The notes beneath the pieces were generated by a model. That model searched no databases. It was not told the origin of the DNA and worked only from the letters and a program-made list of their open reading frames with translations. Below are positions 4,306 to 39,038 of a stretch of 64,000 nt of DNA, piece by piece. Where the stretch lies: assembly GCF_006517175.1 (NCBI RefSeq), contig NZ_CP041186.1, forward strand, positions 1,453,001 through 1,517,000. Reading direction: 5' to 3'. The translations under genes and the position numbers were made by a program. Numbering within the stretch: the stretch's first letter is position 1; every line of letters begins with the position of its first letter. The DNA comes from Persicimonas caeni. GTDB taxonomy: Bacteria; Myxococcota_A; Bradymonadia; Bradymonadales; Bradymonadaceae.

Positions 4306-4344
4306 GGGTCTCTCTGGAGAGTAGATCTTGCAGAGGTTGGGGCG

Positions 4345-4468
4345 CTATTTAGGCGGACAAACTACAATTTGGGGGTCGACTTTTGGAACGTGGTCAATTT
4401 TCGAACTTTCGAGAACCGACCACCTTGGATACCTCGACCCTCAAATTGTAGTTTGTCCGCGCTAATAG
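4345..4468. repeat. Palindromic repeat family A, copy 2 (124 bp)
   Basis: Same length as copy 1, same CTATT...AATAG ends and same outer arms (4353-4378 and 4435-4460), with a more diverged centre that keeps a GTGGTC / GACCAC pair. It lies 40 bases upstream of the MoaC-MoaB start and 21 bases beyond the stop of the NrfD-type gene. Confidence 0.9.
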
Positions 4469-4488
4469 ACTCTCAGCAACCCATACGC

Positions 4489-5751: not shown

Positions 5752-5780
5752 GATTGCTCCAAACCTACGAAATTTCGCGA

Positions 5781-6051
5781 GCCTTGCTGATTCGCTGCGC
5801 CCTCTACATGGGCAATTAAGGACATAGGGGCTGCGTTTTGCCGGCCTTGCTGATTCGCTGCGCCCTCTACATGGGCAATTAAGGATTTGCGGGCTGCGTT
5901 TTGCTGGCCTTGCTGATTCGCTGCGCCCTCTACATGAGCAATTAAGGACATAGGGGCTGCGTTTTGCTACGCCTTCGAACCTCGAGATACCGAATCTGAA
6001 CCACCGGGCGACTCGCAACCCTTATGTCCTTAGATGCCTATGTAGATGGCG
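5781..6051. repeat. Family C repeat: three 63-bp direct units plus inverted partner
   Basis: Three near-identical units start at 5781, 5844 and 5907 (exact 63-bp spacing), each containing CTACATGGGCAATTAAGGA and GGGCTGCGTTTTG. An inverted end follows at about 6011-6051 (CGCAACCCTTATGTCCTTAG then GCCTATGTAGATGGCG). This fills the gap between the ferredoxin and NrfD genes, so it must be transcribed within that operon. Other family members are at 12949 and 63172. Confidence 0.85.
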
Positions 6052-6084
6052 TACCAATCCCGCAAGGCCTCCGCCTCTCCGAGC

Positions 6085-21944: not shown

Positions 21945-23956
21945 ATGGACAATTTTCAGGAGAAGGTCTCCTTCATCTGGTCGGTCGCCGACCTCCTGCG
22001 CGGCGATTATAAGCAATCCCAATACGGTCGCGTCATCCTCCCCTTCACGGTCTTGCGCCGTCTCGACTGCGTGCTCGAAGCCACGAAAGACGCGGTCCTC
22101 GAGGCCAACGACAAGTACGCCGACTCGCCGGAGGCCGTGCGCCACAAGATGCTCGAGAAGGCCGCCGAGCACTCGTTCTACAACACGAGCGCGATGGACT
22201 TCGGCAAGCTCCTGGGCGACCCGAACCACACATCGAGGCGAACCTGACGAAGTATATCGCCTCGTTCTCGAAGAACGCGCGCGACATCCTCGACCACTTC
22301 CGCTTCGAGCAGCAGATCGAGTACCTCGAGCGAAACGACCTGCTGTACCTGATCGTGCAGAAATTCGCCGAGATCGACCTGCCCCCCGACGTCGTGCCCA
22401 ACATGGAGATGGGCTACATCTTCGAGGAGCTGATCCGCAAATTCTCGGAGCAATCGAACGAGACCGCCGGTGAGCACTTCACCCCGCGTGAGGTCATCCG
22501 GCTGATGGTCAATCTCTTGTTCAACGCCGACGGCGACGTCCTCACCCAGGCAGGCACGGTGCGCACGCTCTACGACCCGGCCTGCGGAACGGGCGGCATG
22601 TTGGCGGTGGCCGAAGAATATCTCGAGGAGCTCAACCCCGACGCCGACCTCGAGGTCTTCGGCCAGGAGCTCAACGGCGAGTCCTACGCCATCTGCAAGT
22701 CGGACATGCTCATCAAGGGGCACGAGGCCGACAACATCAAATACGGCAACTCCTTCTCCCAGGATGGTCTGCCCGACAAGTCCTTCGACTACATGCTGTC
22801 GAACCCGCCGTTCGGCGTCTCCTGGAAGAAGGTGCGCAAGCAGATCGAGGACGAGCACGAAACGCTCGGCTTCGACGGCCGCTTCGGCGCCGGCACCCCG
22901 CGCGTCAACGACGGTTCGCTGCTCTTCCTGCAGCATATGATCTCGAAGATGAAGCGTCCGGAAGACGGCGGCTCCCGGCTGGCGATCGTCTTCAACGCCT
23001 CGCCGCTCTTCACCGGCTCGGCCGGCTCCGGCGAGTCGGAGATCCGCAAGTGGATCATCGAGAACGACTGGCTCGAGGCGGTCATCGGCCTCCCCGAGCA
23101 GCTCTTCTACAACACCGGCATCAACACCTACGTCTGGATCGTTACCAACCGAAAGGCGCCCGCCCGGAAGGGCAAGATCCAGCTCATCGACGGCACCGGC
23201 TTCTTCCAGAAGATGCGCAAGTCCCTCGGCGACAAGCGCCACGAGCTCGCCCCCGAGCATATCCGCGAGATCACCAAGCTCTACGCCGAGTTCGAGGAGG
23301 GCGACCACTCCAAAATCTTCGACAACGAGGATTTTGGTTATTACCGCATCAAGGTCGAACGCCCCCTGCGCGAGAACTTCGAGGCCACCCCCGAGCGCAT
23401 CGAGCGCCTCTGGGAAGAGACCAAGTTCAAGAACCTCGCAAAGTCCCGCAAGAAGGACCCCGAGGAGCGCCAAAAGGCCATCGAGGAGGGCAAGGCGCGC
23501 CAGCAGGAGATTGTCCAGATCTTGGAGGCGATGACCGGCCGTCGCTTCAAGAACAAAAAGGCCTTCACCGAGGCCCTCGAAGAGACCCGCGAGGACCTCG
23601 GTATCTCCAAGTTCTACGTCAAGGAGAAGCGCGCCATCTGGTCCGCGCTCGCCGAAAAAGACGAAGACGGCGACATCGTCCACGACACCCAGGGCCGCCC
23701 CAAGGCCGACAGCGACCTCCGCGACTACGAGAATATCCCGCTCAAAGAGGACATCGAGGAGTACTTCGAACGCGAGGTGCTTCCGTACGTTCCCGACGCC
23801 TGGATCGACGAGGACTATACGCGGGTGGGCTACGAGATTCCGTTCACGCGGTACTTCTACGAGTACGAGCCGCCCAGGCCGTTGGAGGAGATCGAGGCGG
23901 AGATTCTGGAGTTGGAGGGGGAGATTCAGGGGATGTTGAAGGAGGTGTTGGCATGA
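21945..23956 (+). pseudogene. hsdM: hsdM, type I DNA methyltransferase, frameshifted
   Basis: N6-adenine methyltransferase subunit of a type I restriction-modification system. Residues [20 protein letters not shown] open the HsdM N-terminal domain in one frame up to GDPNH; at a CACACA run (22227-22232) two extra bases shift the frame, which stops at 22247. Dropping two bases restores [19 protein letters not shown] and the rest (669 residues). The catalytic half is intact: DPACGTGGML (SAM binding) and LSNPPFGVSW. Internal re-initiation at GTG 22355 would give a protein without the N-terminal domain. Sequencing error or dinucleotide slippage are both possible. Confidence 0.88.
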
Positions 23957-25299
23957 GTGAAGTTGCCGAAGCCAGTCGCACTCCCGAAACTGTCGACCAA
24001 AGTCGAAGACACACTGGTATTCCTTGGATCGGAGAGATTCCAGAACACTGGCAGCTCCGAAGGCTGCGTTACCTTTGCAGGATCACCACGGGCGATGGCG
24101 ACACGCAAGATGCTGAGGAGGAGGGGCGTTACCCATTTTTCGTGCGGTCGGACACTGTCGAGCGCTCCAATCGATACATATTTGACGGTGAAGGTGTTCT
24201 CACCTCGGGGGACGGCGCTGGTGTTGGCGAAATCTATCACCACTACAGCGGGAAGATGGCGGTGCATCAGCGCGTGTATCTTCTTCACTCGTTTGATTCA
24301 GTAGTGGGCCGCTACCTCTACTACTACATGAAGGCCAACTTCATGAAACGGGTGCAGGAGGGAACGGCGAAATCCACTGTCGACTCCTTACGCCTCCCCA
24401 TGCTGCAAGACTTTCCGGTCGTGTTTCCGCCCGAACACGAACAAGAGCAACTTATCAACTTCCTCGACCAAAAGACCGCCGCCGTCGACGAGCTTATCGC
24501 CAAGAAGGAACGGCTCATCGAGCTGCTCGAGGAGAAGCGGGCCGCGCTCATCAACCGGGCGGTGACCCGGGGGCTCGACCCCGATGTGCCGATGAAGGAT
24601 TCGGGCGTGCCTTGGATTGGGGAGATTCCGGCGCATTGGGATGTAGTGCAACTCCGCCGCGTAGTTGCCAACTTCGTGGACTACCGAGGAAAGACGCCGC
24701 CGAAAACAAAAAGCGGAATTCCGCTGATTACGGCTGGCGCCATCAAAGACGGTCGGATTCAGCACGAGAACGCCCCCGATTACATCTCGGAAGAAACCTA
24801 CGATGAATGGATGGTCCGAGGTTTTCCTGCTGAAGGGGATGTGCTTCTTACAACAGAAGCACCTCTGGGCGAGACAGCCAGAGTAGAAGACCCGGCAATT
24901 GCTTTGGCTCAACGAATAATCCTGCTTAAGGCCAACCGCCAGTTGGCGGTGAGTGATTGGCTCTACTTCTACTTCCTTTCGGAGTTTGGCCAGGCAGAGC
25001 TCTGGAGTCGGGCTAGCGGCTCTACAGCACTCGGGATTAAGGGCGAAAGGCTTCGCCATGCATTGGTTCTTCTGCCGCCGAAAGAAGAGCAGGAGCAAAT
25101 TTTCGAGCAGGTTGAAGCAGAGCTTTCTGAGTTTCACAACGTCAGGAAAAAAATCACTGAGCAACTGAAGATGCTCCACGAGTACCGCCAATCGCTCATC
25201 ACCAGCGCCGTCACCGGCCAGGTCGAAATCCAAATCGAGTCTGGCGCGGCGGAAGTTTACGGAGTTGGTGAGCGAAGTTTGGTGCCGGCTAGCGAATGA
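23953..25299 (+). CDS. hsdS: hsdS, type I specificity subunit
   Basis: 448 residues; decides which DNA sequence the HsdM/HsdR complex recognises. It has the circular repeat layout: two target recognition domains, each opened by the same phrase (TGIPWIGEIPEHW near residue 20 and SGVPWIGEIPAHW near 217), and two conserved helices (EQEQLINFLDQKTAAVDELI; EQEQIFEQVEAELSEF). The ATG overlaps the hsdM stop (ATGA), so it is coupled to hsdM. The second recognition domain has noticeably more AT-rich codons than the rest, as expected for an exchanged domain. Confidence 0.93.
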   Translation: MSEVAEASRTPETVDQSRRHTGIPWIGEIPEHWQLRRLRYLCRITTGDGDTQDAEEEGRYPFFVRSDTVERSNRYIFDGEGVLTSGDGAGVGEIYHHYSGKMAVHQRVYLLHSFDSVVGRYLYYYMKANFMKRVQEGTAKSTVDSLRLPMLQDFPVVFPPEHEQEQLINFLDQKTAAVDELIAKKERLIELLEEKRAALINRAVTRGLDPDVPMKDSGVPWIGEIPAHWDVVQLRRVVANFVDYRGKTPPKTKSGIPLITAGAIKDGRIQHENAPDYISEETYDEWMVRGFPAEGDVLLTTEAPLGETARVEDPAIALAQRIILLKANRQLAVSDWLYFYFLSEFGQAELWSRASGSTALGIKGERLRHALVLLPPKEEQEQIFEQVEAELSEFHNVRKKITEQLKMLHEYRQSLITSAVTGQVEIQIESGAAEVYGVGERSLVPASE

Positions 25300-25397
25300 T
25301 TGCTGTAGATGGAGTAGCTGTCTTGATGTGACTTTGGTCGAGCACGCGCGGATTCGGGAGGGATGCTGCATGCCCGAGAATGCCGCAGGAGGGATGC

Positions 25398-25769
25398 ATG
25401 AAGAAGAATGAACGACTGCTTCGCCTTTACGAGCTATTGTCTGAGGCGGCGGCACAAGAGCGTGAGTTCACAATTCATGAGGCGATTAAACGCATCGGCT
25501 ATAAGAAGTCGACTATCAAGACCTACCTGAGCAAGAAGCTGCATTCCTACGTTAACCAATCGGCTTCGAACTCGGACTCTTACCGCATCGCAGCTCCGCT
25601 TCCGAAGTCCGAAGAGGCATTCTTGAGCCTCATGACTCAGCGTGCCAAAGCTCCTCCAACGAAGGAAGAGAACCTTGCCGCAAGTCTACTGGAACGCAGC
25701 CGTGATGCTTTCACCGGTAACCGACCGGCAGACCTCGTTCTTGAGCACCTGAGCCCCTCCCCAGCATAA
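25398..25769 (+). pseudogene. 5' part of a DUF3644/HEPN-like gene, cut by the IS66-led insertion
   Basis: A helix-turn-helix-like N-terminus (EREFTIHEAIKRIGYKKSTI and KTYLSKKLHSYV, residues 21-52) is followed by a linker and LLERSRDAFT (97-106), the usual entry into the DUF3644 domain. There the native gene ends: bases from 25717 on are the IS66 end, which adds 17 foreign residues before the stop at 25769. AGGAGGG precedes ATG 25398. The missing part continues in frame at 34813 (VAIESYNRPS). The truncated 123-residue product might still bind DNA. Confidence 0.82.
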
Positions 25770-25801
25770 TCTGTGCGTCACTCACGCTAAAGGAGTCACG
25801 C

Positions 25802-26134
25802 ATGGCATCCCCGAAGAGACGCGGCCGCCCATTCTGGTCGTCCCTCGTTCAGAAGTACGAGCAGTCCAGCGACATCACCCAGAAGGAATTCGCCCAGAAG
25901 TACGGTGTACGCACCGACACCTTCCGAAGCTGGCTGTACCGGCTGCGCCGCGAAGAAGCATCCACAGCCGGCCCATCCGCACCTCGATTTATCGAAGTCG
26001 ACACCAGCCAGGTCGACCCATCGCCCCAGCAGGTCACGCTCGAGCTCGGAGAGTTGCGTTTGCATTTGACCGCGCTGCCCGACCCGGGATGGCTGGCTGA
26101 GCTCGCTGCACTCAAGGAGGCGAGCTCATGCTGA
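25802..26134 (+). CDS. tnpA: IS66 TnpA, helix-turn-helix accessory protein
   Basis: 110 residues, the small DNA-binding protein needed for IS66 transposition. The N-terminal helix-turn-helix reads SDITQKEFAQKYGVRTDTF RSWLYRL, typical of the IS66 OrfA / transposase_8-like group. GGAG precedes the ATG. The end overlaps the start of tnpB by seven bases, so translation is coupled. It appears intact. Confidence 0.9.
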   Translation: MASPKRRGRPFWSSLVQKYEQSSDITQKEFAQKYGVRTDTFRSWLYRLRREEASTAGPSAPRFIEVDTSQVDPSPQQVTLELGELRLHLTALPDPGWLAELAALKEASSC

Positions 26135-26493
26135 CCTTACCCAGAGGAGTGCGCATCTATCTCGCCCGCGAGCCGGTCGACATGCGCAAGGGCATCGACG
26201 GTCTGAGCGCTTTGGTTCGCCAGTTCGGCGAAGACGTCTTTTCCGGCCACCTTTTCGTGTTCATCTCCAAGCGAGGCGACAGACTCAAGATTCTGACCTG
26301 GGACACCGGCGGCTTCGTCGTCTTCTACAAGCGTCTGGAGAAGGGCACCTTCAAGCGACCCAAAATCGCTGCGGCCGACGCGACCCTTCGACTCGACGCA
26401 GCCCAGCTCACACTTCTTTTGGAGGGCATCGACTTTAGCCGACTTCGACGCCCGAAATTGTGGCAGCCGCCGGAAACCAGAAATGCGAGCTAA
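26128..26493 (+). CDS. tnpB: IS66 Orf2 accessory protein TnpB
   Basis: 121 residues. The IS66 Orf2 signature is complete: GVRIYLAREPVDMRKGIDGL, FVFISKRGDRLKILTWDTGG and FVVFYKRLEKGTFKRP. Its biochemical role is not settled, but it is required for IS66 transposition. It overlaps tnpA at its start and is followed closely by the transposase gene. Confidence 0.93.
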   Translation: MLTLPRGVRIYLAREPVDMRKGIDGLSALVRQFGEDVFSGHLFVFISKRGDRLKILTWDTGGFVVFYKRLEKGTFKRPKIAAADATLRLDAAQLTLLLEGIDFSRLRRPKLWQPPETRNAS

Positions 26494-26533
26494 GGGATCG
26501 ACATCCGATCACTTCTGTGATCTAACCTGCTCT

Positions 26534-28066
26534 ATGGCCGAGCGGATCGACATCCCGACCCCAGAAGACATCCAGAAGCTCGATGGTGCGAGCGCTCGGG
26601 GTCTTCTGCGTCAGCTCGCCGCGCTCATTGCCACGCTCTACGCGCTCATCGACGACTTGCGCGAGACGATCGCTCGCCAGAGCCATCAGCTCGAGCAGTT
26701 TCAACGGGCGATGTTTGGAAGCTCGTCGGAGCGACTGCCGTCGCTGAAGACCCAGCTTCGAAAGAAGCAAGCGCGCCGGGAGACTGCCGAGCAGAAAAAG
26801 GAGCGGCTGCACAGGGCGCAAAAGCGGCGCGAGAAAAACGCCGAGAAGAAGCGAAAGGCCGCGCGCAAAGAGGTGGTCGAGCATCCCATCGTCGAGCCCA
26901 ATTGCCACGGCTGCGGCCGACACTCCCACCAAGCAAGCCCGCTGGCCGATGCGGTCAGCTACGAATACGAGTACGTGCCGGCGCATTTCGTGCGCCGTGA
27001 GCACCGCCAGCATCGCGCGGTGTGCGAGTGCGGCGAGTTTCTGTACGGCCAAACGCCTCAGCGGGTCTGCGAGGGCGGGATGTACGGGCCGGGGCTGCAC
27101 GCCAACGTGGTGGTGTCCAAGTGTGCCGACAGCCTGCCCATCGAGCGGCAGGCAAAGCGGCTTCGCCGCGTCGGTATCCCGATGAACAAGAGCACGCTTT
27201 TGGACCTGTACCACCGCACCGCCTGGCTGTTGCGGCCGCTGTGGGCCTACTTGGTCGGCGACGTCGCCCAGAGCGCGGACGTCTCGGCCGACGAGACCCC
27301 GATTCGGGTGCAGGCCAAGGGAAAATGCCGGCGCGGATGGATGTGGACGTTTATCGCGGGCAAAAAGATAAGCTACGTTTACAGCCCGTCTCGCGGCGGC
27401 GAAACCCCGGTGCAGGTGCTCGGCGGGACCACCGGCACCCTGCAGGTCGACGGCTACACCGGCTATAACAAGGTGACCTGTCCGAGCGGCCGCGAGCGCG
27501 CCGGCTGCTGGGCACACGTGCGCCGCAAATTCTTCGAAGCGCGCTCCACGGCCCCTGTGGAGGCCGACCACATGATGTCTCAGATTTTGGAGCTCTATGG
27601 GGTGGAGTATCTTGCGGCAGACGAGCCAGTTATCGGAAGTAAGCCACATTTGCTGCTTACGCTGCGCCAGACGAAGAGCACAAAGATAATCGGCGGTATT
27701 TTTGAGTGGCTCGATGTCCAAAAGCCGCTGCATCCGCCCAAGAGCCCGCTGGGCCGCGCCATCAACTACACGCTCAAGCAGCGCGAGGCGCTCAGCGTCT
27801 TTCTGAACAATGCGCAGGTCAGCCTCGACAACAACCTGAGCGAGCGAAACCTGCGGCTCATCGCGCTGGGCCGAAAGAACTTTCTCTTCGTCGGAAATGA
27901 TCAGGCCGGCGAGAACTTGGCCATCCTGCAATCGCTCGTGGCGACCTGCATCGCCAACGACGTCAACCCCCAGGACTACCTGGCCGACGTCTTGATGCGC
28001 ATCCAAGACCATCCTCAGTCAGCCATTTCGGAGCTGATGCCGTACAACTGGGAGCCTCAGGATTGA
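26534..28066 (+). CDS. tnpC: IS66 transposase TnpC
   Basis: DDE transposase of about 510 residues. An N-terminal leucine-rich coiled coil (LIDDLRETIARQSHQLEQF), a basic Lys/Arg linker, and a zinc-binding CHGCG...CECGE pair precede the catalytic core. Candidate acidic residues are D in VSADETPIRV, D in LQVDGYTGY and E in LDNNLSERNLR. The IS66 C-terminal tail (NDVNPQDYLADVL) is present, so the enzyme looks functional. ATG 26534 starts the family similarity; an in-frame ATG at 26483 overlaps the end of tnpB and is possible. Confidence 0.93.
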   Translation: MAERIDIPTPEDIQKLDGASARGLLRQLAALIATLYALIDDLRETIARQSHQLEQFQRAMFGSSSERLPSLKTQLRKKQARRETAEQKKERLHRAQKRREKNAEKKRKAARKEVVEHPIVEPNCHGCGRHSHQASPLADAVSYEYEYVPAHFVRREHRQHRAVCECGEFLYGQTPQRVCEGGMYGPGLHANVVVSKCADSLPIERQAKRLRRVGIPMNKSTLLDLYHRTAWLLRPLWAYLVGDVAQSADVSADETPIRVQAKGKCRRGWMWTFIAGKKISYVYSPSRGGETPVQVLGGTTGTLQVDGYTGYNKVTCPSGRERAGCWAHVRRKFFEARSTAPVEADHMMSQILELYGVEYLAADEPVIGSKPHLLLTLRQTKSTKIIGGIFEWLDVQKPLHPPKSPLGRAINYTLKQREALSVFLNNAQVSLDNNLSERNLRLIALGRKNFLFVGNDQAGENLAILQSLVATCIANDVNPQDYLADVLMRIQDHPQSAISELMPYNWEPQD

Positions 28067-28180
28067 GATGCGGGGCGGGTTTGCGGTAGGGTTGAGCTAT
28101 GCAACGATGTCTGCCAGTCGGTTACCTTGCGACTATGGTTGCATCATCCCGAACTTCTCCGGTGAAAATGAGGATGGGTA

Positions 28181-29230
28181 ATGATTGGAAAGCACTTCAG
28201 TGAGACAGGTCTGCTGCGCGTGCGAATGGGGACGCGCCTCTGGATTCTCCTGATTCTACTGGCGCCTCTCACCGGTGGATGTGGACCAGATGATCCCGAG
28301 ACCTGGGTGACGTACCTGAGTTCCGGCTCGTTCGAACGGTATGACGAGGTTGAGATCCTGCCCATCGGCAGTCAAATTGAGCTGCAGTATTTTCGAGAAG
28401 GTTCCGAAGGGAAGGGGTTTCCTCTGAGACTCGAATGGGTGCGATCGAGTGCACCACACGTGATACGGGTCGTCGAGTATTCTCGCGCGGAACCGCCTTA
28501 CACGCCGACTTTGGGACAAGGAATCATTGTTCTCGAGGCTGTTTCACCTGGAAAGGCGACGATCGAGATGAAAGGGTCCTCCCACTCCGATATTTTTTCG
28601 GGAGGTACATTGTCGATCGAAATAGAGGTCGCCAAACCAGCAAAGCTGACCTTCGTAAAGGGTCGCTGCTTGCAAGGAGATGCCATCCTCCCAGGGCAGC
28701 CCCTGCGTATCGCGTATGACTTGTTCGACGGGCGGGATCGAGCCCTCTACGAGCACGATACTGGACGTTTTTATCGTTTCGAACCGGAAGATGCCGTTGG
28801 AACTGGCGGTTTTGGCTATATGGCTATACGCCCTGCCCACGTCACGGTACGATCTCGCGTAGATGACTCAACCATCGGATTCCAAATTCACCCCGAATCC
28901 AGCATCACCAGCGCATCGCTCGCTGCCACTCGCGATACTGACCGCTTCTTGATTGGCAACTCGAATTATTTAGCCATTACGGCAAACGTATTGGGAAAGA
29001 GTGCGTGCTCCCACATCAATACGAACGTTGTCTCCAACACAGTCACAAACCTAACACCCACCGTCTGCGCGCATGTGAAGGCGTCGGGCAGTCAATTCCG
29101 AGTAGACTTCCAGCAGCCGGGGCAGTGCAAGATCGACTTCGCCTTGCCGAATGCACGGGGTGGTGAGGGGATTACGCTCCGATATGAGGCCGAAGTAGAA
29201 AGCACACACCACGATGGAAATACAAACTGA
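28181..29230 (+). CDS. Lipoprotein of unknown function, first of three
   Basis: 349 residues. The N-terminus has a hydrophobic helix ending LLAPLTGGCGPDD, a lipobox; ATG 28226 (MGTRLWILL) is as likely a start as 28181. The rest is beta-rich with no family I recognise: strands such as LRLEWVRSSAPHVIRVVEYS and ATIEMKGSSHSDIFSGG look like Ig-like repeats, and four later cysteines could form disulfides. Codons are clearly more AT-rich than in the flanking chromosome. It precedes two further lipoprotein genes in the same direction inside the inserted segment. Confidence 0.75.
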   Translation: MIGKHFSETGLLRVRMGTRLWILLILLAPLTGGCGPDDPETWVTYLSSGSFERYDEVEILPIGSQIELQYFREGSEGKGFPLRLEWVRSSAPHVIRVVEYSRAEPPYTPTLGQGIIVLEAVSPGKATIEMKGSSHSDIFSGGTLSIEIEVAKPAKLTFVKGRCLQGDAILPGQPLRIAYDLFDGRDRALYEHDTGRFYRFEPEDAVGTGGFGYMAIRPAHVTVRSRVDDSTIGFQIHPESSITSASLAATRDTDRFLIGNSNYLAITANVLGKSACSHINTNVVSNTVTNLTPTVCAHVKASGSQFRVDFQQPGQCKIDFALPNARGGEGITLRYEAEVESTHHDGNTN

Positions 29231-29257
29231 GACAAGAAATAGGATGCGAGGAACGTA

Positions 29258-30481
29258 ATGACGGAAAACACGAGAAGAGCAATCGCTGTACTATTTCTTG
29301 TCTTTGCAAGTGCGTCCTGCTCGAATTCAGACGGAGAACACCTAAACGTACCTTCTGACGATGATCTCCGTGATTTCGCCGCAACGCGCACCTCTAAGCT
29401 TACGGGATCGGAAGCGCTGGACGACGACGACAATGATGGGGTTAAGAATGAATTCGATGAATGCGCGACCCCTATATTAATCGACGGTCCTTGGGGAGTA
29501 ATCATGCCAAGGGTCGGAGCCAATGGCTGTGAAGAAGCAGCTATGCCACACGTTTGCCGTGGTGACACAGCACCTCCGCGCCATGTATTAGGAAGTCAAG
29601 AGGAAGGCAATTTTATTATGGGCGCGAAGGTTCGACGACGCACTCTAGAAGGTCATACTGTTTTTGAGGTTCGCCTCCCAGGCGGAATGGACGTCGACCT
29701 AGAAGAAAAATGCCCACGATTCACGGGTGGCGTTGTCGGTGTGTTTTCAATTGGGAAGAAGTTTCCAATTTGGACTTGCAAGACGCGAGAGGTCCCACAG
29801 CAGTGGCCGAACGATCCTGGGACTGGCTCATATAATCGACAAGCTCGGATAGACGATCTCAACCCATGTTATTTTGATCCGGCAGCGTTTGGAATTAGTG
29901 AGAGTGAGGTCCAAGATGCTCTGAAGAGCGGGATTCGCGTGTTTCTGAACTTCGTCGCGGAGGATGCTGCGGGGAATACTCTCAGAACTCACATCGGAGA
30001 GGGTACATTGGATTCCAAGACATGTCAGTTGTCGCTCTTGCGAGATAAATATGGAGAGCTAGCAACTACTTCGACCGAATCGTGCTCGTCCTATTGTGAT
30101 AGTCCAGCAGAGATTAAGGTAGCCACCGTCAGCACAGAAGGACCAGATATTGAATCAACAACGGCAGTTCTTCCTCGTCCAACCTTTTCCGTCGTGGTGT
30201 TGGGAGAAATTGCTTATGATTCGGGCTGCGGCTCACCTCAGATGGGGGGGTTCTTGAAAAATCTGACTGTCGCTGGACGAACAGAGGTCTCCCCTGATGA
30301 GCAAGTGTACTGCAAGAGCGAAATCAACGGAACAAAATTTGAGGTGCGCTGTGACGTGAGGGTGCGCAACCTCGTTGTTAAGCACGATGTCCAAGAGCGG
30401 ATTCTTGGAGATTTAAATGTCTATCTCCGAGTTGGAGACACGGCCAGAACAGTGCCACTTTCTTTTGATCAGGTTCTGTAA
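29258..30481 (+). CDS. Cysteine-rich lipoprotein with a calcium-type Asp loop
   Basis: 407 residues. The signal ends LVFASASCSN, a lipobox. Residues around 55-68 (LDDDDNDGVKNEFDEC) form a thrombospondin type-3-like calcium loop, common in myxobacterial and bradymonad surface lipoproteins. About fourteen cysteines in the rest suggest several disulfides, so it is extracellular. I do not recognise the remaining domain. Its stop overlaps the next gene by one base (TAATG), so the two are coupled. AT-rich codons indicate transfer. Confidence 0.75.
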   Translation: MTENTRRAIAVLFLVFASASCSNSDGEHLNVPSDDDLRDFAATRTSKLTGSEALDDDDNDGVKNEFDECATPILIDGPWGVIMPRVGANGCEEAAMPHVCRGDTAPPRHVLGSQEEGNFIMGAKVRRRTLEGHTVFEVRLPGGMDVDLEEKCPRFTGGVVGVFSIGKKFPIWTCKTREVPQQWPNDPGTGSYNRQARIDDLNPCYFDPAAFGISESEVQDALKSGIRVFLNFVAEDAAGNTLRTHIGEGTLDSKTCQLSLLRDKYGELATTSTESCSSYCDSPAEIKVATVSTEGPDIESTTAVLPRPTFSVVVLGEIAYDSGCGSPQMGGFLKNLTVAGRTEVSPDEQVYCKSEINGTKFEVRCDVRVRNLVVKHDVQERILGDLNVYLRVGDTARTVPLSFDQVL

Positions 30482-31773
30482 TGCATCGAACTAAGAGCAG
30501 GATGTCGTACACTTCGACACTCGGGCAGTGGGGAGTGGCCTTCTTCTCTCTGATTCAAGTGGTAATTGCCTTAACTACAAGCGTTGGCTGCAGTGACGCC
30601 AATAGCCCGATGTCGCGCGATGGTGGATTCGAGACCGATGCGAAGGCCCAACCGGATGATACGTGGCAAATTCCGGATCCTTTTGCCGAAGTAGACAGAG
30701 CCCCACTTGACGAGGACTTACATGAACGAAAGCGTTTTCTGGGGGCTGTAGCCTCTTCCGGGAGTCACGCATTTGCTGTCTCTGTTTCGCTGGAAGACCG
30801 GGTAGACTATCGGCTACTGGTCTATGACATTGACGGCGATTCTCCTAGACTTGTTGGCAAGGCGCTCACCTCCAATCAACCCACAGACATCGTGGTTGCT
30901 GATGGCCTCGCATATCTTGTGACCAATGCCACAGGGATAGATGAACCCTCGCTCATCATTTACGATGTTACAAACCCTGCGGAGCCTCGCTGGTATGGAA
31001 AAGCTAGTCTATCGGGTATTGACCCATCGGGTAACGACTGCTTAGACGAACGTTCGTCACCCGAACTGCACCTCCAGGTGCTTGAAGAGCATGCTTACAT
31101 CGGGTGTAGTTTCGGAATTGCTGTGGTTGACATCTCTGAGCCGAGCGAGCCCGAAGTTTCCGACGTGGTGTCAATGCCAGCACACGTGCTTCGGCTTGGC
31201 GCCTTTTTGCGCGAGTGGGATGGCAGAGCACAACACTTGGTGTTACCGCTGTTGAATGGCAATAGCGAGGTGCCGGTTTATCTTGTGAATGATGGGGAGT
31301 TGCGCGAGATGGCCCCTCCGCTCACGTTGGATTTCGAGCTGTCATCAGGTACTCGGCTGGCCACACACATACCACCTACGCTAGGACAGATAGACTATAG
31401 CCACGTCAATGTAGCCTTTTCGGGCCGAGGAGGTGCACTGGCGTTGAGTGAAGTGGTGGCGTACTCAAGCGACGACAAATACACCCCAGAATCTTATACC
31501 GCGACCGATTTGTCGTTTACGGGACTGCTGAGTGCAGTAGCTGTCGAAGAGGACCAAGTTTACGTTGCCACAGAACCTGGCGGTACCCTCACGGTGCCGA
31601 CCGTACACCGAGTGTCTTTCTCGGCATTGCGAGATCCGACGGTTGAGGGAGAGGTTGAGCTGGAGCAGTTAAAGACGATCTACGATCTTGTCGTTTCCGC
31701 GGATCGAATAATTATCGCCGCCGAAGCTCAGAGCGGGGATGGACTTTCCTTGATTCCCGTGGATGCGTTGTAA
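30481..31773 (+). CDS. Beta-propeller-like (LVIVD-type) lipoprotein
   Basis: 430 residues. A hydrophobic signal ends LTTSVGCSDA, a lipobox. The mature part contains phrases of the LVIVD repeat kind, each ending in a strand such as LLVYDIDGDSPRLVGKA, LIIYDVTNPAEPRWYGKA and IAVVDISEPSEPEVSDV, then weaker ones further on; this predicts a surface beta-propeller. Family members occur in bacterial surface proteins of unknown role. It ends the three-gene lipoprotein set carried by the inserted segment, perhaps for adhesion or predation, which is guesswork. Confidence 0.78.
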   Translation: MHRTKSRMSYTSTLGQWGVAFFSLIQVVIALTTSVGCSDANSPMSRDGGFETDAKAQPDDTWQIPDPFAEVDRAPLDEDLHERKRFLGAVASSGSHAFAVSVSLEDRVDYRLLVYDIDGDSPRLVGKALTSNQPTDIVVADGLAYLVTNATGIDEPSLIIYDVTNPAEPRWYGKASLSGIDPSGNDCLDERSSPELHLQVLEEHAYIGCSFGIAVVDISEPSEPEVSDVVSMPAHVLRLGAFLREWDGRAQHLVLPLLNGNSEVPVYLVNDGELREMAPPLTLDFELSSGTRLATHIPPTLGQIDYSHVNVAFSGRGGALALSEVVAYSSDDKYTPESYTATDLSFTGLLSAVAVEEDQVYVATEPGGTLTVPTVHRVSFSALRDPTVEGEVELEQLKTIYDLVVSADRIIIAAEAQSGDGLSLIPVDAL

Positions 31774-31904
31774 TCTCTCAGCGCATTTCGGTGTATTGGG
31801 CAGTATAGGTTTGTGAGTTTGTGGCGAAGCCTCAATCTTGGTGTTGTCACAGCGAACAAGCCGCTAGAGAAGCCGGGGTTTGTTCGGCCCCGGCTTCGCT
31901 GCAT

Positions 31905-32291
31905 CTAGAACGGAATGTCGTCGCCATCGAACTCCGGTACATCGTCGGAGTCGACGGCCGGGGCGTCGTCCTTCTTGTCGAGAAACTCGACCGACTTTGC
32001 GAGGACCTGGACGTCACGACGGTTGTTGCCGTCCTCATCTTGCCAGGAATTCGTTTGAAGCTCGCCTTGGATCGCTACATGCGAGCCTTTGGAAAGATAC
32101 TCGAGGCAGTTTTCGGCGAGGGGACCGAAAGCTACAACGCGGTGCCAGTCAGTTCGCTCCTTTCGTTCGCCGTCTTTGTCAGACCAACGCTTGTTCGTGG
32201 CGACGGACAGTCGGCACAACAGGGTGCCGCTATCGAGCTTCTTCGCTTCAGGGTTGGCTCCGAGATGACCAGTCAACATCGCTACATTCAT
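31905..32291 (-). CDS. ssb: Single-stranded DNA-binding protein
   Basis: 128 residues; coats single-stranded DNA. The OB fold is seen as MLTGHLGANPEAKKLDSGTL, DWHRVVAFGPLAENCLEYL and KGSHVAIQGELQTNSW. The C-terminus keeps the acidic tip DDIPF that docks SSB partner proteins. ATG 32291 has GGAG seven bases before it. Within the inserted segment it precedes nothing else on this strand; with ardC and trbB it points to a conjugative plasmid, where SSB protects the transferred strand. Confidence 0.93.
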   Translation of the reverse strand: MNVAMLTGHLGANPEAKKLDSGTLLCRLSVATNKRWSDKDGERKERTDWHRVVAFGPLAENCLEYLSKGSHVAIQGELQTNSWQDEDGNNRRDVQVLAKSVEFLDKKDDAPAVDSDDVPEFDGDDIPF

Positions 32292-32357
32292 CGTTCTGCT
32301 CCATAGGCAGAGGGTTGTGGTGAATGCCCGCCGGCCCATGCCGGCGGGCGGTTTGGC

Positions 32358-33230
32358 TCACGCTGCGTCCTGCTCCTGAGCAGGTTGCAGGTCCGAGAGA
32401 AACTCGGCCGCGTCCTGAGCCTTGCGAGACGCGGTGAAAATCGCGTGTTTGTCTTCTTTGAGAATCCGAATCCAGCTTTTGAGGTAGCGCGCGGGGTCTT
32501 TGAGGTCGGCTTCCAGGCCGAGCTCCGCCGAGAGGAACGCGCTTGTCAGTTCAGCCACGAGCTCCTCGGCGGCGTACTTGTCGTCACCGAAGCGACCGGA
32601 CATGTCGCGGTCGAGGCGGGTGGGGTGACCCGTCCAGTGACCGAGCTCGTGAAGCAGGGTGGTGTAGTAGGCTTCGGGCGACTCGAAGTGGCCGAAATCA
32701 GGCATGGTCACTCGGTCTTTCGCGGGGGAGTAAGCCGCGTGTGGCGAACCTTCTTCGATGCGTGCGCCGGTGTTTTTCACGAAGGCTTCCGCCTGCCCAA
32801 TCCTTTCTTCTTCGCTCAACTGGTGAGCCGGGATGTCCAGCGGCTCGAGGCCGTCAATCTGGTCGCGGTTAAAGACAGTCGAAGTTTTGAGGAAACGGAT
32901 CGTTCGCTCTTCTTCTTCGCCGTCGTCGGTCTCGATGGTCTTCTTGAACTTGCCCAGGTAGCAGATTTTGACTCCGGACTCGCCTTTGCGGACCTGGCCA
33001 CCTTCTTTCTGCGCCTGGCGGTAGGTGTACCACTCGTTGGTCGAGTAACCGTTTACGAGTGCGGTGCCCCAGAGCGTCAGGACATTGACGCCGCGGTAGT
33101 TGTTGCCGGTGCGGCCGTTTCGAGGAATGCCAGCCGAGGTGGACCAGGGTTGGTGCCAGTCGCCCGCGTCGACTTTCTCGAAGAGGTCGACGATTTGGTC
33201 AGTAATAAGTTGGTGTTTGTCCTGTGCCAT
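32358..33230 (-). CDS. ArdC-like antirestriction protein, zincin domain
   Basis: 290 residues. N-terminal ArdC ssDNA-binding domain (QPWSTSAGIPRNGRTGNNYRG, split by one residue from VNVLTLWGTA), then a metallopeptidase domain with HELGHWTGH (194-202) and a downstream glutamate in AAEELVAEL. ArdC proteins protect incoming plasmid DNA from restriction on entry. ATG 33230 (MAQDKHQLITDQIVDLF) is chosen; sequence further upstream is not conserved. It sits beside ssb and trbB. It is notable that an antirestriction gene has landed inside a restriction locus. Confidence 0.88.
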   Translation of the reverse strand: MAQDKHQLITDQIVDLFEKVDAGDWHQPWSTSAGIPRNGRTGNNYRGVNVLTLWGTALVNGYSTNEWYTYRQAQKEGGQVRKGESGVKICYLGKFKKTIETDDGEEEERTIRFLKTSTVFNRDQIDGLEPLDIPAHQLSEEERIGQAEAFVKNTGARIEEGSPHAAYSPAKDRVTMPDFGHFESPEAYYTTLLHELGHWTGHPTRLDRDMSGRFGDDKYAAEELVAELTSAFLSAELGLEADLKDPARYLKSWIRILKEDKHAIFTASRKAQDAAEFLSDLQPAQEQDAA

Positions 33231-33447
33231 CGGTGTGTTCCTTGCGCCAAATGAAAAGCTGGCTCGTTGAGACCAGCCGGATGTAAGCGTGTCTGCTCGC
33301 CCTTGAGCTGCCTTGTGGGCGGGCCCTTCACCCTTGCGAGGGCCGCACGCGAGGGAGCGGGGGCGATGCAGACGAAAAGCGTGTCCGGCGATGGTCGTGC
33401 GATGCCAATCAGCTCTGGCGCTGGAACGGTGTGCGATGGAGGACAAC

Positions 33448-34386
33448 TCACACCTCCTGAAGCTGATACTCTTGACCGTCATGGCACATGACGCGGGCGA
33501 CGGTCTTCACCTCCCGGCCGGTAGCGGTGCCCTCGATGTAGACAACGAGGTTGACTGCCTCGGCGATCAGTTGCACAGGAGCCCTGGGGATAGCTTCCTC
33601 GATGAGACTCTCGAGCCGAGTGAGCCCCCTCAACGCGCTGTTGGCGTGGATGGTGGCACAGCCCCCATTGTGTCCGGTGTTCCATGCCTTCAAGAGATCG
33701 AGAGCCGACGCGTCGCGCACCTCACCGACGACGATCCGATCCGGCCTGCTACGAAGACTGTCTTTGACCGCCTTTTGCCAGGTAAAGCCGCTGTCCCGGT
33801 CGATGTAAAACGCGATGTGATTGGGCGCGGTGCACTGAAGTTCCGGCGTATCCTCAATGGTGAGCACGCGGTCTTCGGTCCCCGAAATGACCTGCAGAAT
33901 AGCGTTCGCCAGCGTCGTCTTTCCCGAGCCGGTGCCCCCAACGATGAGGACGTTCTGACGGTCGACCACCGCTTCATAGATGGCCTTGGCCTGCTCGTAA
34001 GACATGTAGCCGTCGTCTACGTAGTCCTGCAGGCTGAACACGCGGGTTGCGCGCTGGCGGATGACAAACATGGGTGCCGGCACCACGGGAGGCACAAACC
34101 CCTGGAAGCGCGCGCCGGATTCGGGGAGCACAGCAGCAAGGGAGGGCTTTTGTCGGTTGCACACCTCGTCGGCCGACGATGCGACGATGTTGATGATGGA
34201 TTCGACTTCCGCAGAGCGGACGCGAACGCCCGAGTCAACCATGCCGACGCTAAACTTCTCGACCCAGACCCTGCCGTCTGGATTCGCCATAACCTCGGTG
34301 ATGAGCTCGTCGTTGAGCAGTTGCCACAGCTCGGGTCCGCAACTGTGCTCGAGCATGTTCATGAGGCGGTCTTGTTTTTCCGACAT
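33448..34386 (-). CDS. trbB: TrbB/VirB11-family conjugation ATPase
   Basis: About 312-residue hexameric ATPase that powers a type IV secretion pump at the inner membrane. Motifs in order: Walker A GGTGSGKTT, Asp box LTIEDTPEL, Walker B RIVVGEVRD, and the His box CATIHANSA. The N-terminal domain (ELWQLLNDELITEVMANPDG) and the length fit TrbB. ATG 34386 follows GGAG; an in-frame ATG at 34404 is less likely. No other trb genes are present, so this is a lone survivor of a transfer operon within the inserted segment. Confidence 0.92.
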   Translation of the reverse strand: MSEKQDRLMNMLEHSCGPELWQLLNDELITEVMANPDGRVWVEKFSVGMVDSGVRVRSAEVESIINIVASSADEVCNRQKPSLAAVLPESGARFQGFVPPVVPAPMFVIRQRATRVFSLQDYVDDGYMSYEQAKAIYEAVVDRQNVLIVGGTGSGKTTLANAILQVISGTEDRVLTIEDTPELQCTAPNHIAFYIDRDSGFTWQKAVKDSLRSRPDRIVVGEVRDASALDLLKAWNTGHNGGCATIHANSALRGLTRLESLIEEAIPRAPVQLIAEAVNLVVYIEGTATGREVKTVARVMCHDGQEYQLQEV

Positions 34387-34442
34387 CAGAAGCTCCGTGA
34401 TCACAAATCGAAAAATAGATAAGTATACAAATAGCCAAATAG

Positions 34443-34811
34443 TCAGTCGTCGAAGACGAACTTGACCTTGCCCTCGTCGCCAAGCGTCAGCCTGGTGGAG
34501 AAGGACTTTCCGGCCTTGGACTTAAAGCCTTTGAGTTTGCGGGTGGTTTTCCCCTCGAGGAGCTGAGTGGCGACCGACGTCGTGATGCGCTTTCCGGCAA
34601 TCTTCTTGAAGATGACGAAAGCGCAGTCGCGCCCCGTTCTGCAGTAGTACGCCTTCTTACCCTCGAGGACGTCGGCACCACACAGCGGGCAGGTGCCCAG
34701 GGTCTCAGGCCCAGCGGACGGCAAGTCGACCGAGCGAGTGATGATGTTTCCAACGACCTCGCGGGTGAGCTTGCGCACCTGCCCCATGAAGGCGCCGCGC
34801 TCAAGCTTCAC
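34443..34811 (-). pseudogene. topB: topB 3' fragment (type IA topoisomerase III C-terminus)
   Basis: About 120 residues corresponding to the C-terminus of plasmid-type TopB: FMGQVRKLTREVV, a zinc-finger-like CPLCGADVLEGKKAYYC, then FVIFKKIAGKRITTS, LLEGKTTRKLKGFKSKAGK and the last strand GKVKFVF. All catalytic domains are missing because the reading frame runs into DUF3644 sequence at about 34806, the right end of the inserted segment. The first residues (VKLERG) may come from the junction. It shows the donor was broken inside topB. Confidence 0.82.
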
Positions 34812-34812
34812 C

Positions 34813-35703
34813 GTGGCAATTGAGTCCTACAACCGGCCCTCACTCCATAACCGCGTCGAAGTTTTCACGATCCTCATCACGAACGCTTGGGAGTTACTGC
34901 TAAAGGCGGAAATCATCAAAGCGTCCGACAACATAGACGCCATTTTTTACAAGGACTCAGACCGGTCGCTTGCAATTCGAGATGCGCTGAAGCAACGAAT
35001 TCCCAAGGAAAATGATCCGGTGCGGAAAAACCTCGAAAAGGTGTGTGACCTGCGCGATAATGCAGTGCATCTGCTGATTCCAGAGCTTCAGGCGCATTGG
35101 TCACGTCTGTTTCAGGCCAATGTTCTCAACTTCATTACACGCTACGAAGATGCCACCGGAGAGAATCTCTTCAACAGCGGTCGTGGCATGCTCAGCCTCA
35201 TCGTGGACCGAGAAGCAGCCGAGCTAGCCACGATCAAGCTGAAGTTTGGAGAAGCATCTGCCGAAACAGTTGAATTATTCTTGCAGCGGTTTCTCGCAGA
35301 CGAGGAAGAACTTGATACGCCGAACTTTGCGATTCCGGTCGACTATCGGCTGGTGCTCACGAAGGCCAATCAGCAGGGAGATATAGTGCTGTCGCACGGT
35401 GAGGGTGGCCGACGTGCGATAAAGGTTGTCCAATCGAGAAACATCGATAAGACGCACCCGCATCTGATGATGGAAGCAGTCGAATTGATCGGTGAGCGTC
35501 TGCCCGAGCACCACGTTACCAGACCTCGTGTGACGGCAATTTGCGAGAAGCATCACATCTATAACTCACCGGGTTCGAAATACTACGACGAGATTCAAAA
35601 GCCGTTCACAAGACGCTTCTCTGACACATTTGTTGATTGGGTTGTGGAGAAGGCGAGTGAGGATACTGAGTGGATTGAGCGTGCGTGGGACTGGTACTCG
35701 TGA
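34813..35703 (+). pseudogene. 3' part of the DUF3644/HEPN-like gene, severed from its 5' end
   Basis: 296 residues starting VAIESYNRPSLHNRVEVF and ITNAWELLLKAEII, the hallmark of DUF3644. An R-x4-H motif, RDNAVH (residues 81-86 of this part), matches the HEPN RNase active site pattern. GTG 34813 or ATG 34786 (inside topB antisense sequence) could start translation, so a truncated protein without the N-terminal helix-turn-helix may still be made. Its 5' part is at 25398-25715. The reverse transcriptase gene follows after 172 bases on the same strand, so the two were probably one operon. Confidence 0.82.
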
Positions 35704-35875: not shown

Positions 35876-37525
35876 GTGTCGAGACGCGCTCCAACATTAG
35901 ATTCATTGCTTCGTTCGGGGTACTTTCCAAAAGAACTTCCTCCTGCGTTTACGACCGCCCCCTTCGCGAATGCTTTTGCTGAGAAAGACATCGACGAAGA
36001 GTTCTTTGGCATTACGAACGCCAGTGACCCAAATGCGGTCGCCAATCGTTTCAAAGGAGCTTCTGCGACCCGTCCCGCACAGCACTTTTTGGCGCTGCGG
36101 AACGGTGGCCGACGACGACTTGAAGTTCCGAACCCCGCAAGCTTCTATTGGCTTGCGAAAGAAATAAGTGCAGGATGGCACGAGCTATGGGCGAAGATCG
36201 GTCGATCTCAACTGTCGATTTCTGCGCCGCAAGTAAACGATGATTCTAGCCGTGCGGTTACCCCACAGTCTCCTGGTAATAAGCGTCCAGAAATTCGCGC
36301 GCAGCGTTTTTGCTACGGGACAATACTGTTTGAGTGCGACATAGCGTCCTACTACCCGTCGATCTATACCCATTCCATTCCTTGGGTTCTACATGGGAAA
36401 GAAAAGGCGAAGTCCAACAAGAATGGGCTGAAACTGTTGGGTAATCGGCTGGACAAGTTGTGCCAGAACTGTCAGCGCCGGCAAACTCGGGGGATTCCAG
36501 TCGGGCCAGACACCTCACTAATTATCAGCGAGTTGCTTCTTTCAGAAGTGGACGTGCGACTGTCTGAATTAGACGAATTACGGGGAGGAATGCGCTTTTA
36601 TGATGACTTCGAGTTGGTGTGCGAGACTGACGATGATGCTAACTTACTTAGGAGTTCGATTGAAGATGCACTGGAGTGGCTAGAGCTTGAGGTGAACAAT
36701 CGGAAGTGCCGGATTGAACGTCTTCCTGTTGAGTTGGATCCTCCCTGGCGGCGAGAGCTACGACGGTGGGAAGCAAAAAAACGTTCTGGACCCTCGATTC
36801 GAGGAGTAAACAAGCTGAACCCGCAAGAGTTACTAGATTTTTGGGATACCACAACAGCTCTTCAGGGCGACGCCCCGCATGATCCAGTGATTAAAGAAGC
36901 GATCGTAAGGCTCAGTCTGCGCGACGGATTGGCAGTACGACCGAGCCGAAGATATCAAAAGTTTTTGGCGTCGGCGCTCCGGCTTCAACCGGCCTTGGCT
37001 AGACCTGCGTTCACGGAATTGCTGCGGATCAAGAAACATGGGTGCCTCGACGCCGATCTCCTCAACGACGTGCTCTCACATCGAGTAAAGCGATTCGCAC
37101 AAACGCGGGCAACGAATGAGGTGGCTTGGAGTGTATGGGGCGCACTCGCGTTGGATGTCTCACTTGGAGAAGAATGTGGCCAGATTCTTGCGGATGTAGA
37201 TGATGCTTTTGTTGCTCTCTTGTCGTTGATAGCTCGGGAAAAAGGGCTGATTACGGGGCTTGGACGCATCGAGCGATGGAAGTCGTGGTGCACGGCGGAA
37301 TCGCTCAAGGATGAAAATTGGCTTGGATGCTATCAAATTGCTAAGAGTGGCCTTATTGATGGGGTCGACAACAGTATTCTTGAATCTCAACACTATTCGT
37401 CTCAGCTGAGAGCCGCCGATGTGGATTTTGTTGATATTGACGACTTCGACGACATAGATGCGCTGATTGCGAAACTGAATTTGAAAAGATTGGCTCGAGA
37501 GCTCGATGGCGGAGGGCAGTCCTGA
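35876..37525 (+). CDS. Reverse transcriptase of the UG/Abi/DRT defence type
   Basis: 549 residues. N-terminal LLRSGYFPKELPPAF phrase, then RT fingers and palm: motif A FECDIASYYPSIYTHSI (catalytic D155), motif B RQTRGIPVGPDTSLIISE (203-219), motif C RFYDDF (D243, D244) and a motif D-like LELEVNNRKCRIERLP. The YYPSIYTHS and GIPVGPDTS forms are typical of Abi-like and UG reverse transcriptases, not of group II introns. Residues about 290-549 form a helical C-terminal domain, as in that clade. The start is GTG 35876 with AAGGGA before it. Codons are AT-rich. The exact class cannot be assigned by eye. Confidence 0.9.
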   Translation: MSRRAPTLDSLLRSGYFPKELPPAFTTAPFANAFAEKDIDEEFFGITNASDPNAVANRFKGASATRPAQHFLALRNGGRRRLEVPNPASFYWLAKEISAGWHELWAKIGRSQLSISAPQVNDDSSRAVTPQSPGNKRPEIRAQRFCYGTILFECDIASYYPSIYTHSIPWVLHGKEKAKSNKNGLKLLGNRLDKLCQNCQRRQTRGIPVGPDTSLIISELLLSEVDVRLSELDELRGGMRFYDDFELVCETDDDANLLRSSIEDALEWLELEVNNRKCRIERLPVELDPPWRRELRRWEAKKRSGPSIRGVNKLNPQELLDFWDTTTALQGDAPHDPVIKEAIVRLSLRDGLAVRPSRRYQKFLASALRLQPALARPAFTELLRIKKHGCLDADLLNDVLSHRVKRFAQTRATNEVAWSVWGALALDVSLGEECGQILADVDDAFVALLSLIAREKGLITGLGRIERWKSWCTAESLKDENWLGCYQIAKSGLIDGVDNSILESQHYSSQLRAADVDFVDIDDFDDIDALIAKLNLKRLARELDGGGQS

Positions 37526-37660: not shown

Positions 37661-37850
37661 TTTTGCGCGCAGCTGAACGGTGTCACACACCGTTCGGCGG
37701 CGCTCTATCAGATGAACGGTGCCACACACCGCTTGGCGGTGCACATGCGTCGACGTAGAGGGCTGGTTGCCGTTCTGGACCCGGCCTGAGAACACAAGAA
37801 TAGTTTCGAGCTGCTTTGTTGATTGTGATTTCGAGGTTGTTTTGGCTGAG

Positions 37851-39038
37851 ATGGATGATGGTAAGGGGTTGATACGGAAGGTGTTTCGGCAACGTGCCGA
37901 GGTTGTGAAGATTGTGCTGGTCGCAGTGTTGCTGAGTATCGGCGTGAATTTGATTGCTCAATTTACTTGGGATTGGGCAAAACCTCACAAACAAGCGATG
38001 TTAGTGGTGGGGCTGTTTCTTTGCGTTTTGGCTGTCGCGATTCTTGCCGTGAACCTTTTTTCGAAGATTACAAAGGTAAGGAGCGTCTTCGAAGGCATTT
38101 TCGTTTACGATGAGAAGTCCGACGCTTTCGTGAGTGTTGACCGATACTGGTTTTCTCACGAGATTTGCCGCTATTATGATGCGGCAATTGCCGAGGATTT
38201 AGCGCTAAAAGCTCGCTGGGAAAATTGCCGCTTTGAGTTATTTGGCAAGCGCAATGACATGTTTGTGGAATTGGCGACTTACGCTCTTCTTAACCAACTG
38301 TCGGTGCATCTTTCTGACTACTTTAATGATACGAGCTTTGAGGATGAGTCGCTCGAGGTTTTTCAGCGCGACGATCTCACCAAGGACGTTTTGAAGAATG
38401 AATTTCTAGCGCTATTCTCGAAGCCGATGGAGAAGCGAGCACCGTTTGTTAAACAGACCCTTGCTGAGAAAGATACGGGTCCGGGAGAGGTTATTGCGTC
38501 ATTTAGTGACGGCGCAATTTATGAAAAATTTAGGTTGGTTCTGCCAAAGGGAAGTCGTCTCACACTGCGGGATGACGGTGCGATTTGTGTCAAAACAAGA
38601 CGATTAGATTTGGTTTTAGGGGTCCGGTTTATTGGCACCCAGTCGTTGTTGCCAAGTGAATTTCAAAGGCTCTATCTTGGTGTGGAGCAACCTATTCACC
38701 ACAGCGTTTACGAGGTAGACGTGTCAATCGAAGCCTCTTTTCGTTTATTGCCGCTACTCGCGAAGAAGGGCTGGCGTTACTACTTCTGGTTAGAGTCATT
38801 TTTTGAGGATATTAGGTCGAAGGTGTCACGAGAACACTTTCTGAAGTCTATCGGCTGGCAGACAGCGTATACCACCTACCGACTCATGAACCCAGAGACA
38901 AGAAACGACCAGCGGGAGTCTTGTACTAGTGACCAAGAGGAAAAGCCGGGCAAGGCCGAGACTGACACTAGCACGGGATCTGACATAGACTCCGCTGAGC
39001 GAAAAAGGTCGCCCGACTCAAATGACGGCTGCGAATAA
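37851..39038 (+). CDS. Two-helix membrane protein of unknown function in the defence island
   Basis: 395 residues from ATG 37851. Two transmembrane helices near the N-terminus (VVKIVLVAVLLSIGVNLIAQ, about 19-38; AMLVVGLFLCVLAVAILAV, about 49-67) are followed by a cytosolic domain of about 240 residues and a disordered, Glu/Ser-rich tail. I do not recognise the family. The layout (two helices plus a globular domain) recalls membrane effectors of abortive systems, but no motif proves this. Strongly AT-rich codons. It stands alone between two 54-bp direct repeats, downstream of the RT. Confidence 0.7.
   Translation: MDDGKGLIRKVFRQRAEVVKIVLVAVLLSIGVNLIAQFTWDWAKPHKQAMLVVGLFLCVLAVAILAVNLFSKITKVRSVFEGIFVYDEKSDAFVSVDRYWFSHEICRYYDAAIAEDLALKARWENCRFELFGKRNDMFVELATYALLNQLSVHLSDYFNDTSFEDESLEVFQRDDLTKDVLKNEFLALFSKPMEKRAPFVKQTLAEKDTGPGEVIASFSDGAIYEKFRLVLPKGSRLTLRDDGAICVKTRRLDLVLGVRFIGTQSLLPSEFQRLYLGVEQPIHHSVYEVDVSIEASFRLLPLLAKKGWRYYFWLESFFEDIRSKVSREHFLKSIGWQTAYTTYRLMNPETRNDQRESCTSDQEEKPGKAETDTSTGSDIDSAERKRSPDSNDGCE

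Follow-up and report, generated by a model that had tools for sequence, protein, structure and literature searches.

A DUF3644 gene of the winged-helix and HEPN type lies in two pieces within a 64,000 nt stretch of the Persicimonas caeni genome (contig NZ_CP041186.1, positions 1,453,001 to 1,517,000; hereafter the window, to which all coordinates refer), inside a type I restriction-modification (R-M) operon and between hsdS and a gene for a defence reverse transcriptase (RT). The genome analysed is a single contig of 8.05 Mb. The two pieces are one gene that was once whole and was recently interrupted by a 9,097 bp insert, a conclusion held with very high confidence; that confidence covers the interruption, and does not extend to the function proposed for the protein below.

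The initial annotation had the coordinates and the frame correct: positions 25398-25715 (106 codons) join in frame to 34813-35700 (296 codons), giving a stop-free protein of 402 aa with the break between residues 106 and 107 (join 25715|34813). Neither half has an internal stop. The sequence TTCACCG does stand on both sides of the insert (25710-25716 and 34807-34813), as had been reported, with the true boundary of the mobile element one base further in. The two halves are matched in composition, with a GC content of 0.516 on the left and 0.515 on the right and a GC content at third codon positions (GC3) of 0.60 in both. Across the insert, GC ranges from 0.50 to 0.62 and GC3 from 0.46 to 0.84; the values of the halves are unlike those of its IS66 and plasmid genes, and its lipoprotein-like cargo is nearer to them. 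That the insertion was recent is indicated by the identity of the three copies of its IS66 element in this genome and by the lack of a stop in either half of the gene.

The assignment to DUF3644 was upheld by profile searches. The joined protein matches Pfam DUF3644 (PF12358; curated cut-off 27.6 bits) at 148.7 bits (1.9e-43), covering the profile from position 2, and the right part alone at 135.0 bits (2.9e-39), covering it from position 12; the match of the joined protein to PADLOC PDC-S19 is 8.7e-74. By BLASTP, at least 16 uncut homologues from other genomes and viral contigs cross residues 106|107 without a gap at the break (for example SRDAFT|VAIESYNRP against SRDNML|LALELYNRP), and seven of the 16 cover nearly the whole protein; examples of junction-crossing homologues are L080 (residues 1-402, 4e-50), L008, L009 and L031. 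Two unrelated genes that happen to be joinable might be read from the left part alone, which has no significant Pfam match, but these homologues already refute that idea, and with halves of equal composition and target-site bases on both sides its probability is negligible. A plasmid search with the left part alone found nothing. The proposal that an intact gene was disrupted recently thus agrees with homologues that are continuous over the break and with the equal composition of the halves, and no genome in the searched set carries the two parts separately, as distinct genes. The initial annotation had suggested looking for relatives in which the gene between hsdS and the RT is uninterrupted; that set contains no such close relative. 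Other hsd clusters do have intact DUF3644 genes (L031, L025).

The protein architecture was examined in an intact relative from a viral contig, L080 (AlphaFold, mean predicted local distance difference test score, pLDDT, 78), the right fragment modelled directly reaching a pLDDT of only 45. The N-terminus of the L080 model runs helix-strand-helix-helix-strand-strand, the secondary structure of a winged helix, and a motif [GN]-[WY]-[KG]-x-[SA]-[TS]-x-K-[TS]-Y is common to the left part and to L080, L082, L089, L090 and L097 (in homologues such as TGWKNATFKTYLGK, with IGYKKSTIKTYLSK as the counterpart in the left part); both support the helix-turn-helix-like N-terminus that had been predicted. 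Four long helices follow (94-115, 122-146, 179-193 and 200-225), which suggests a HEPN-like four-helix bundle as the central domain of the intact relative, and the break in the gene maps into the first of them. The HEPN identity is supported further by the RDNAVH motif (R-x4-H, within the R-x4-6-H pattern of HEPN RNases). Nine homologues all keep its R and H, conservation of both residues reaches at least 90% in an alignment of 21 rows, and over this segment the family profile matches the solved HEPN toxins 5yep and 6m6u (E 0.003). The C-terminal domain of the model consists of helices and two short strands, with no obvious restriction endonuclease (REase) fold; in the joined protein, Pfam searches gave no match C-terminal of residue 266 and no ATPase domain. 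In Foldseek searches of PDB and BFVD, every match had an E value of 0.001 or higher. Elsewhere, L032 (7717-10509) and L033 (7357-10101) have a DUF3644-like region without R-x4-H fused into proteins of about 900 aa, possibly a non-catalytic derivative.

Table 1. Features of the interrupted DUF3644 gene, the insert and the surrounding operon (window coordinates).
Feature	Position	Strand	Remarks
hsdM	21945..23956	+	2-bp frameshift in CCACACATCG near 22226-22235
hsdS	23953..25299	+	genome's only hsdS
DUF3644 gene, 5' part	25398..25715	+	winged-helix N-terminal domain and beginning of HEPN helix 1; 106 aa, ends LLERSRDAFT
Left target octamer TTTCACCG	25709..25716	.	directly abuts IS66 left end
IS66-family element, complete	25717..28125	+	2409 bp; ends GTAACC...GGTTAC
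IS66 terminal inverted repeats, ~23 bp	25717-25739 and 28103-28125	.	92% complementary ends
IS66 tnpA	25802-26134	+	by position only
IS66 tnpB	26128-26493	+	profile
IS66 tnpC	26483-28066	+	profile
IS66 right flank CTTGCGAC	28126..28133	.	no match to left target copy
Lipoprotein-like cargo gene 1	28181-29230	+	
Lipoprotein-like cargo gene 2	29258-30481	+	
Lipoprotein-like cargo gene 3	30481-31773	+	LVIVD repeat
ssb, single-strand binding protein (plasmid remnant)	31905..32339	-	Pfam
ArdC-type antirestriction / zincin protein (plasmid remnant)	32358..33398	-	
trbB, P-type conjugative transfer ATPase (plasmid remnant)	33448..34404	-	TIGR02782 3.7e-110, above cut-off
topB, truncated, last 122 codons of DNA topoisomerase III	34443..34811	-	5' end lost exactly at gene junction
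Far target octamer CTTCACCG	34806..34813	.	7/8 match to left copy; gene resumes here
DUF3644 gene, 3' part	34813..35703	+	remaining HEPN domain and C-terminal domain; 296 aa and stop
RDNAVH (R-x4-H)	35053-35070	+	inside 3' part of DUF3644 gene
DRT6/DRT4-like defence reverse transcriptase	35876..37525	+	YDD motif present
orfX	37719-39038		439 aa, GC 0.485
AlbA_2 + HATPase_c_4 protein	39473-41365		internal tandem repeat of kind EVERETSEAEQKTSE
hsdR	41368..44334	+	

The left end of the insert is the exact left end of a complete IS66 element (Table 1). Two further copies in the genome show 0 mismatches over all 2409 bp, and both are flanked by perfect 8-bp duplications, GTGAGATC and CGCGCAAT. At the copy in the DUF3644 gene, TTTCACCG stands on the left and CTTGCGAC on the right, with no duplication at the right end of the element, which rules out a clean single IS66 insertion; the DNA beyond the element therefore came with, or was joined to, IS66. 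The partner of the left octamer lies instead at the far junction, where seven of its eight bases are found. Matches of this quality occur 20 times on the + strand of the window, about once per 3,200 bp, so that one placed exactly at the junction is not chance. The 9.1-kb insertion described at the outset was accordingly right in size and place, and is refined here from one clean element to an IS66 copy with a truncated piece of a conjugative plasmid.

The stretch carrying ssb, the ArdC-type gene, trbB and topB is a remnant of a conjugative plasmid. Full-length homologues of topB elsewhere have open frames of about 700-1040 codons and can be aligned with the fragment almost as far as the junction, stopping just a few residues from it; the junction therefore falls within topB, and the donor DNA must once have extended further. 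The plasmid fragment occurs only once in the genome, and no donor was found: when 379 genomes of the phylum were searched with the plasmid part at the DNA level, all matches other than its own locus were short. The plasmid fragment has brought an ArdC-type antirestriction gene inside a restriction operon.

The most likely route to this arrangement is capture of a plasmid by IS66 followed by a deletion, in an order that we infer. The exact IS end, the unbroken continuity of the gene and the target bases at both ends show that IS66 attacked the octamer TTTCACCG within the HEPN helix 1 codons of the intact DUF3644 gene, and the plasmid genes show that it brought, or was later joined to, a piece of conjugative plasmid. 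Fusion of the plasmid into the gene via IS66 (as a cointegrate, a composite transposon or by recombination between IS copies) would have placed the plasmid between two IS66 copies, the second of them on its far side. A later deletion, extending from within topB and ending one base into the outer target duplication, would have removed the second IS66 and most of the plasmid, so that the right half of the gene resumes with seven of the eight target bases. Alternatively, one-ended transposition of IS66, with a true left end and an arbitrary right end inside topB, could have carried 6.7 kb of plasmid in one step, leaving either a 7-bp duplication or a duplicated octamer that later mutated at one position. 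Such a single event would account at once for the precise IS boundary on the left, the truncation of topB and the far target copy with its 7/8 match, and acquisition of neighbouring DNA in this one-ended way has been documented for IS801 of the IS91 family (PMC3189936). It is nonetheless rather unlikely, as the duplication is inexact and the right end has no sequence like an inverted repeat (best 9/23, a level common in the background). One-ended transfer of the IS91 type is, moreover, a rolling-circle process and is not known for the DDE-type IS66 family; nothing direct on one-ended transposition of IS66 was found in the literature. The sequence evidence fits both routes, which cannot be separated by it, and plasmid capture with deletion is preferred.

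Before its interruption, the gene between hsdS and the DRT-type RT would have encoded an intact winged-helix-HEPN protein (DUF3644/PDC-S19; EC042_2821-like). In the EcoprrI system, the type I R-M operon includes the gene for PrrC, an anticodon nuclease of the HEPN class. By analogy, the chances are about even that the intact DUF3644 protein was a HEPN endoribonuclease checked by, or sensing, its R-M host system and killing or arresting the cell once that system was upset, in the manner of PrrC with EcoprrI. It is conceivable, if somewhat doubtful, that it was instead a stand-alone abortive-infection factor or a part of the neighbouring RT module: PDC-S19 is, judged by name only, a single-gene candidate system in PADLOC, some homologues lie on viral contigs, and the low GC common to the DUF3644, RT and orfX genes suggests joint import. 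The RT relatives, however, have no DUF3644 neighbour (0 of 4 flanks), and most of the closer DUF3644 homologues adjoin methyltransferase-based systems, namely type I genes (L031, L025 and, next to hsdS, L019), type ISP (L028, L035), a type III-like methyltransferase (L027) and DISARM drmC (L029).

Whatever the ancestral role, the effector in this genome is probably dead, because the right fragment is missing the beginning of HEPN helix 1 and shows no obvious expression signal. It is very improbable that the fragments still work as two proteins, a short DNA-binding one (25380-25769) and a truncated HEPN protein starting anew at GTG 34693, ATG 34786 or GTG 34813. Reading through the junction, the right frame stays open over 336 codons, and natural homologues without the winged helix, starting near residue 88, do exist (L079, L084, L085), but in these short forms the first HEPN helix is complete (LLEKSQEAFILAIE), unlike in the right fragment; no promoter-like site was found above shuffled expectation, and the upstream plasmid genes are antisense.

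Several points weigh against the interpretation as a whole. The empty site was not directly seen, the 379 genomes searched including no congener; the far target copy matches at seven of eight bases, not eight; and no second IS66 remnant, or its inverted repeat, is present at the right end of the insert. For the protein, R-x4-H is absent from four divergent homologues (L030, L032, L033 and L034), and structural matches in PDB are weak (Foldseek best E 0.3; HEPN toxin 7bxo E 1.3). An RNase activity is, like any tie to HsdMSR, inferred, and the DUF3644 genes near methyltransferase genes are given here as individual instances.

The gene order of the operon is hsdM-hsdS-DUF3644-RT-orfX-AlbA_2/HATPase gene-hsdR. 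The hsdM gene has two extra bases compared with the intact hsdM of L031, so that frame 0 ends in ...GDPNH and frame +2 continues as in L031; with the effector split and hsdM frameshifted, the only type I system of the genome is doubly damaged. The GC content is low in the DUF3644, RT and orfX genes (0.49-0.52) compared with hsdM and hsdR (about 0.6), which suggests that the three were imported together. The RT finds its best PADLOC match in Drt6 (1.3e-129) and scores 211 bits against NCBIfam Drt4, under the 450-bit cut-off. An obligate pairing of DUF3644 with the RT was considered and is ruled out by the flanks of the four RT relatives. In the RT relatives L076, L037 and L077, the short flanks show no detectable hsd or DUF3644 gene. 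No significant match to orfX was found in Pfam, PADLOC, NCBIfam or PHROGs, and the AlbA_2 + HATPase_c_4 protein is presumably RloA-like. The L031 locus (3934-6261) is another multi-layer hsd operon, an intact type I cluster in which a GmrSD/DUF4268 gene separates hsdS from hsdR and DUF3644 follows hsdR immediately.

The locus is a clear example of a probable suicide nuclease recently disabled by a mobile element, within a restriction operon that is itself decaying, and its junctions illustrate how IS66 can leave a chromosomal scar of conjugative-plasmid DNA. A broader idea, speculative and on balance improbable, is that DUF3644 winged-helix-HEPN proteins are general guards of methyltransferase-based defence (type I, ISP, III-like and DISARM), killing the cell when the partner fails, and that the IS66 hit came first and let the hsdM frameshift be tolerated. 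If true, the locus would record the loss of a guard before that of the system it guarded, an order of events that is testable.

Among known systems, the closest is the EC042_2821/DUF3644 HEPN family (PADLOC PDC-S19, PHROG 9605), with which the joined protein shares profile matches over the whole domain, the combination of a winged helix with a HEPN domain bearing R-x4-H, and the setting in an R-M operon; it differs in that the gene is split here. A survey of HEPN proteins (Anantharaman et al. 2013) lists DUF3644/EC042_2821 as HEPN with a winged helix-turn-helix, in R-M operons, and gives EC042_2821 an REase-type C-terminus (PMC3710099), whereas the L080 model shows no obvious fold of that kind. 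Nothing direct was found in the literature on PDC-S19, or on DRT6 with type I restriction. The likeness to PrrC lies in the position of the HEPN gene, with hsdS before it and hsdR after it, and in what is likely a metal-independent RNase active site; unlike PrrC, the joined protein has a winged helix in place of the ABC-ATPase domain, and the cluster has extra RT, orfX and AlbA_2 genes. It is therefore not a PrrC, and is possibly PrrC-like in function only. The downstream RT resembles DRT6 in its best score, but falls below the cut-off for Drt4, lies inside an hsd operon and has no part in the disruption. The mobile element has the tnpA-tnpB-tnpC genes and inverted repeats of the IS66 family and, at its other two copies, the 8-bp duplications; this copy differs in having no direct duplication of its own, the second target copy lying 6.7 kb away at the end of the plasmid fragment. 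Both the protein family and the kind of mobile element are thus already known, and it is the composite junction that is unusual.

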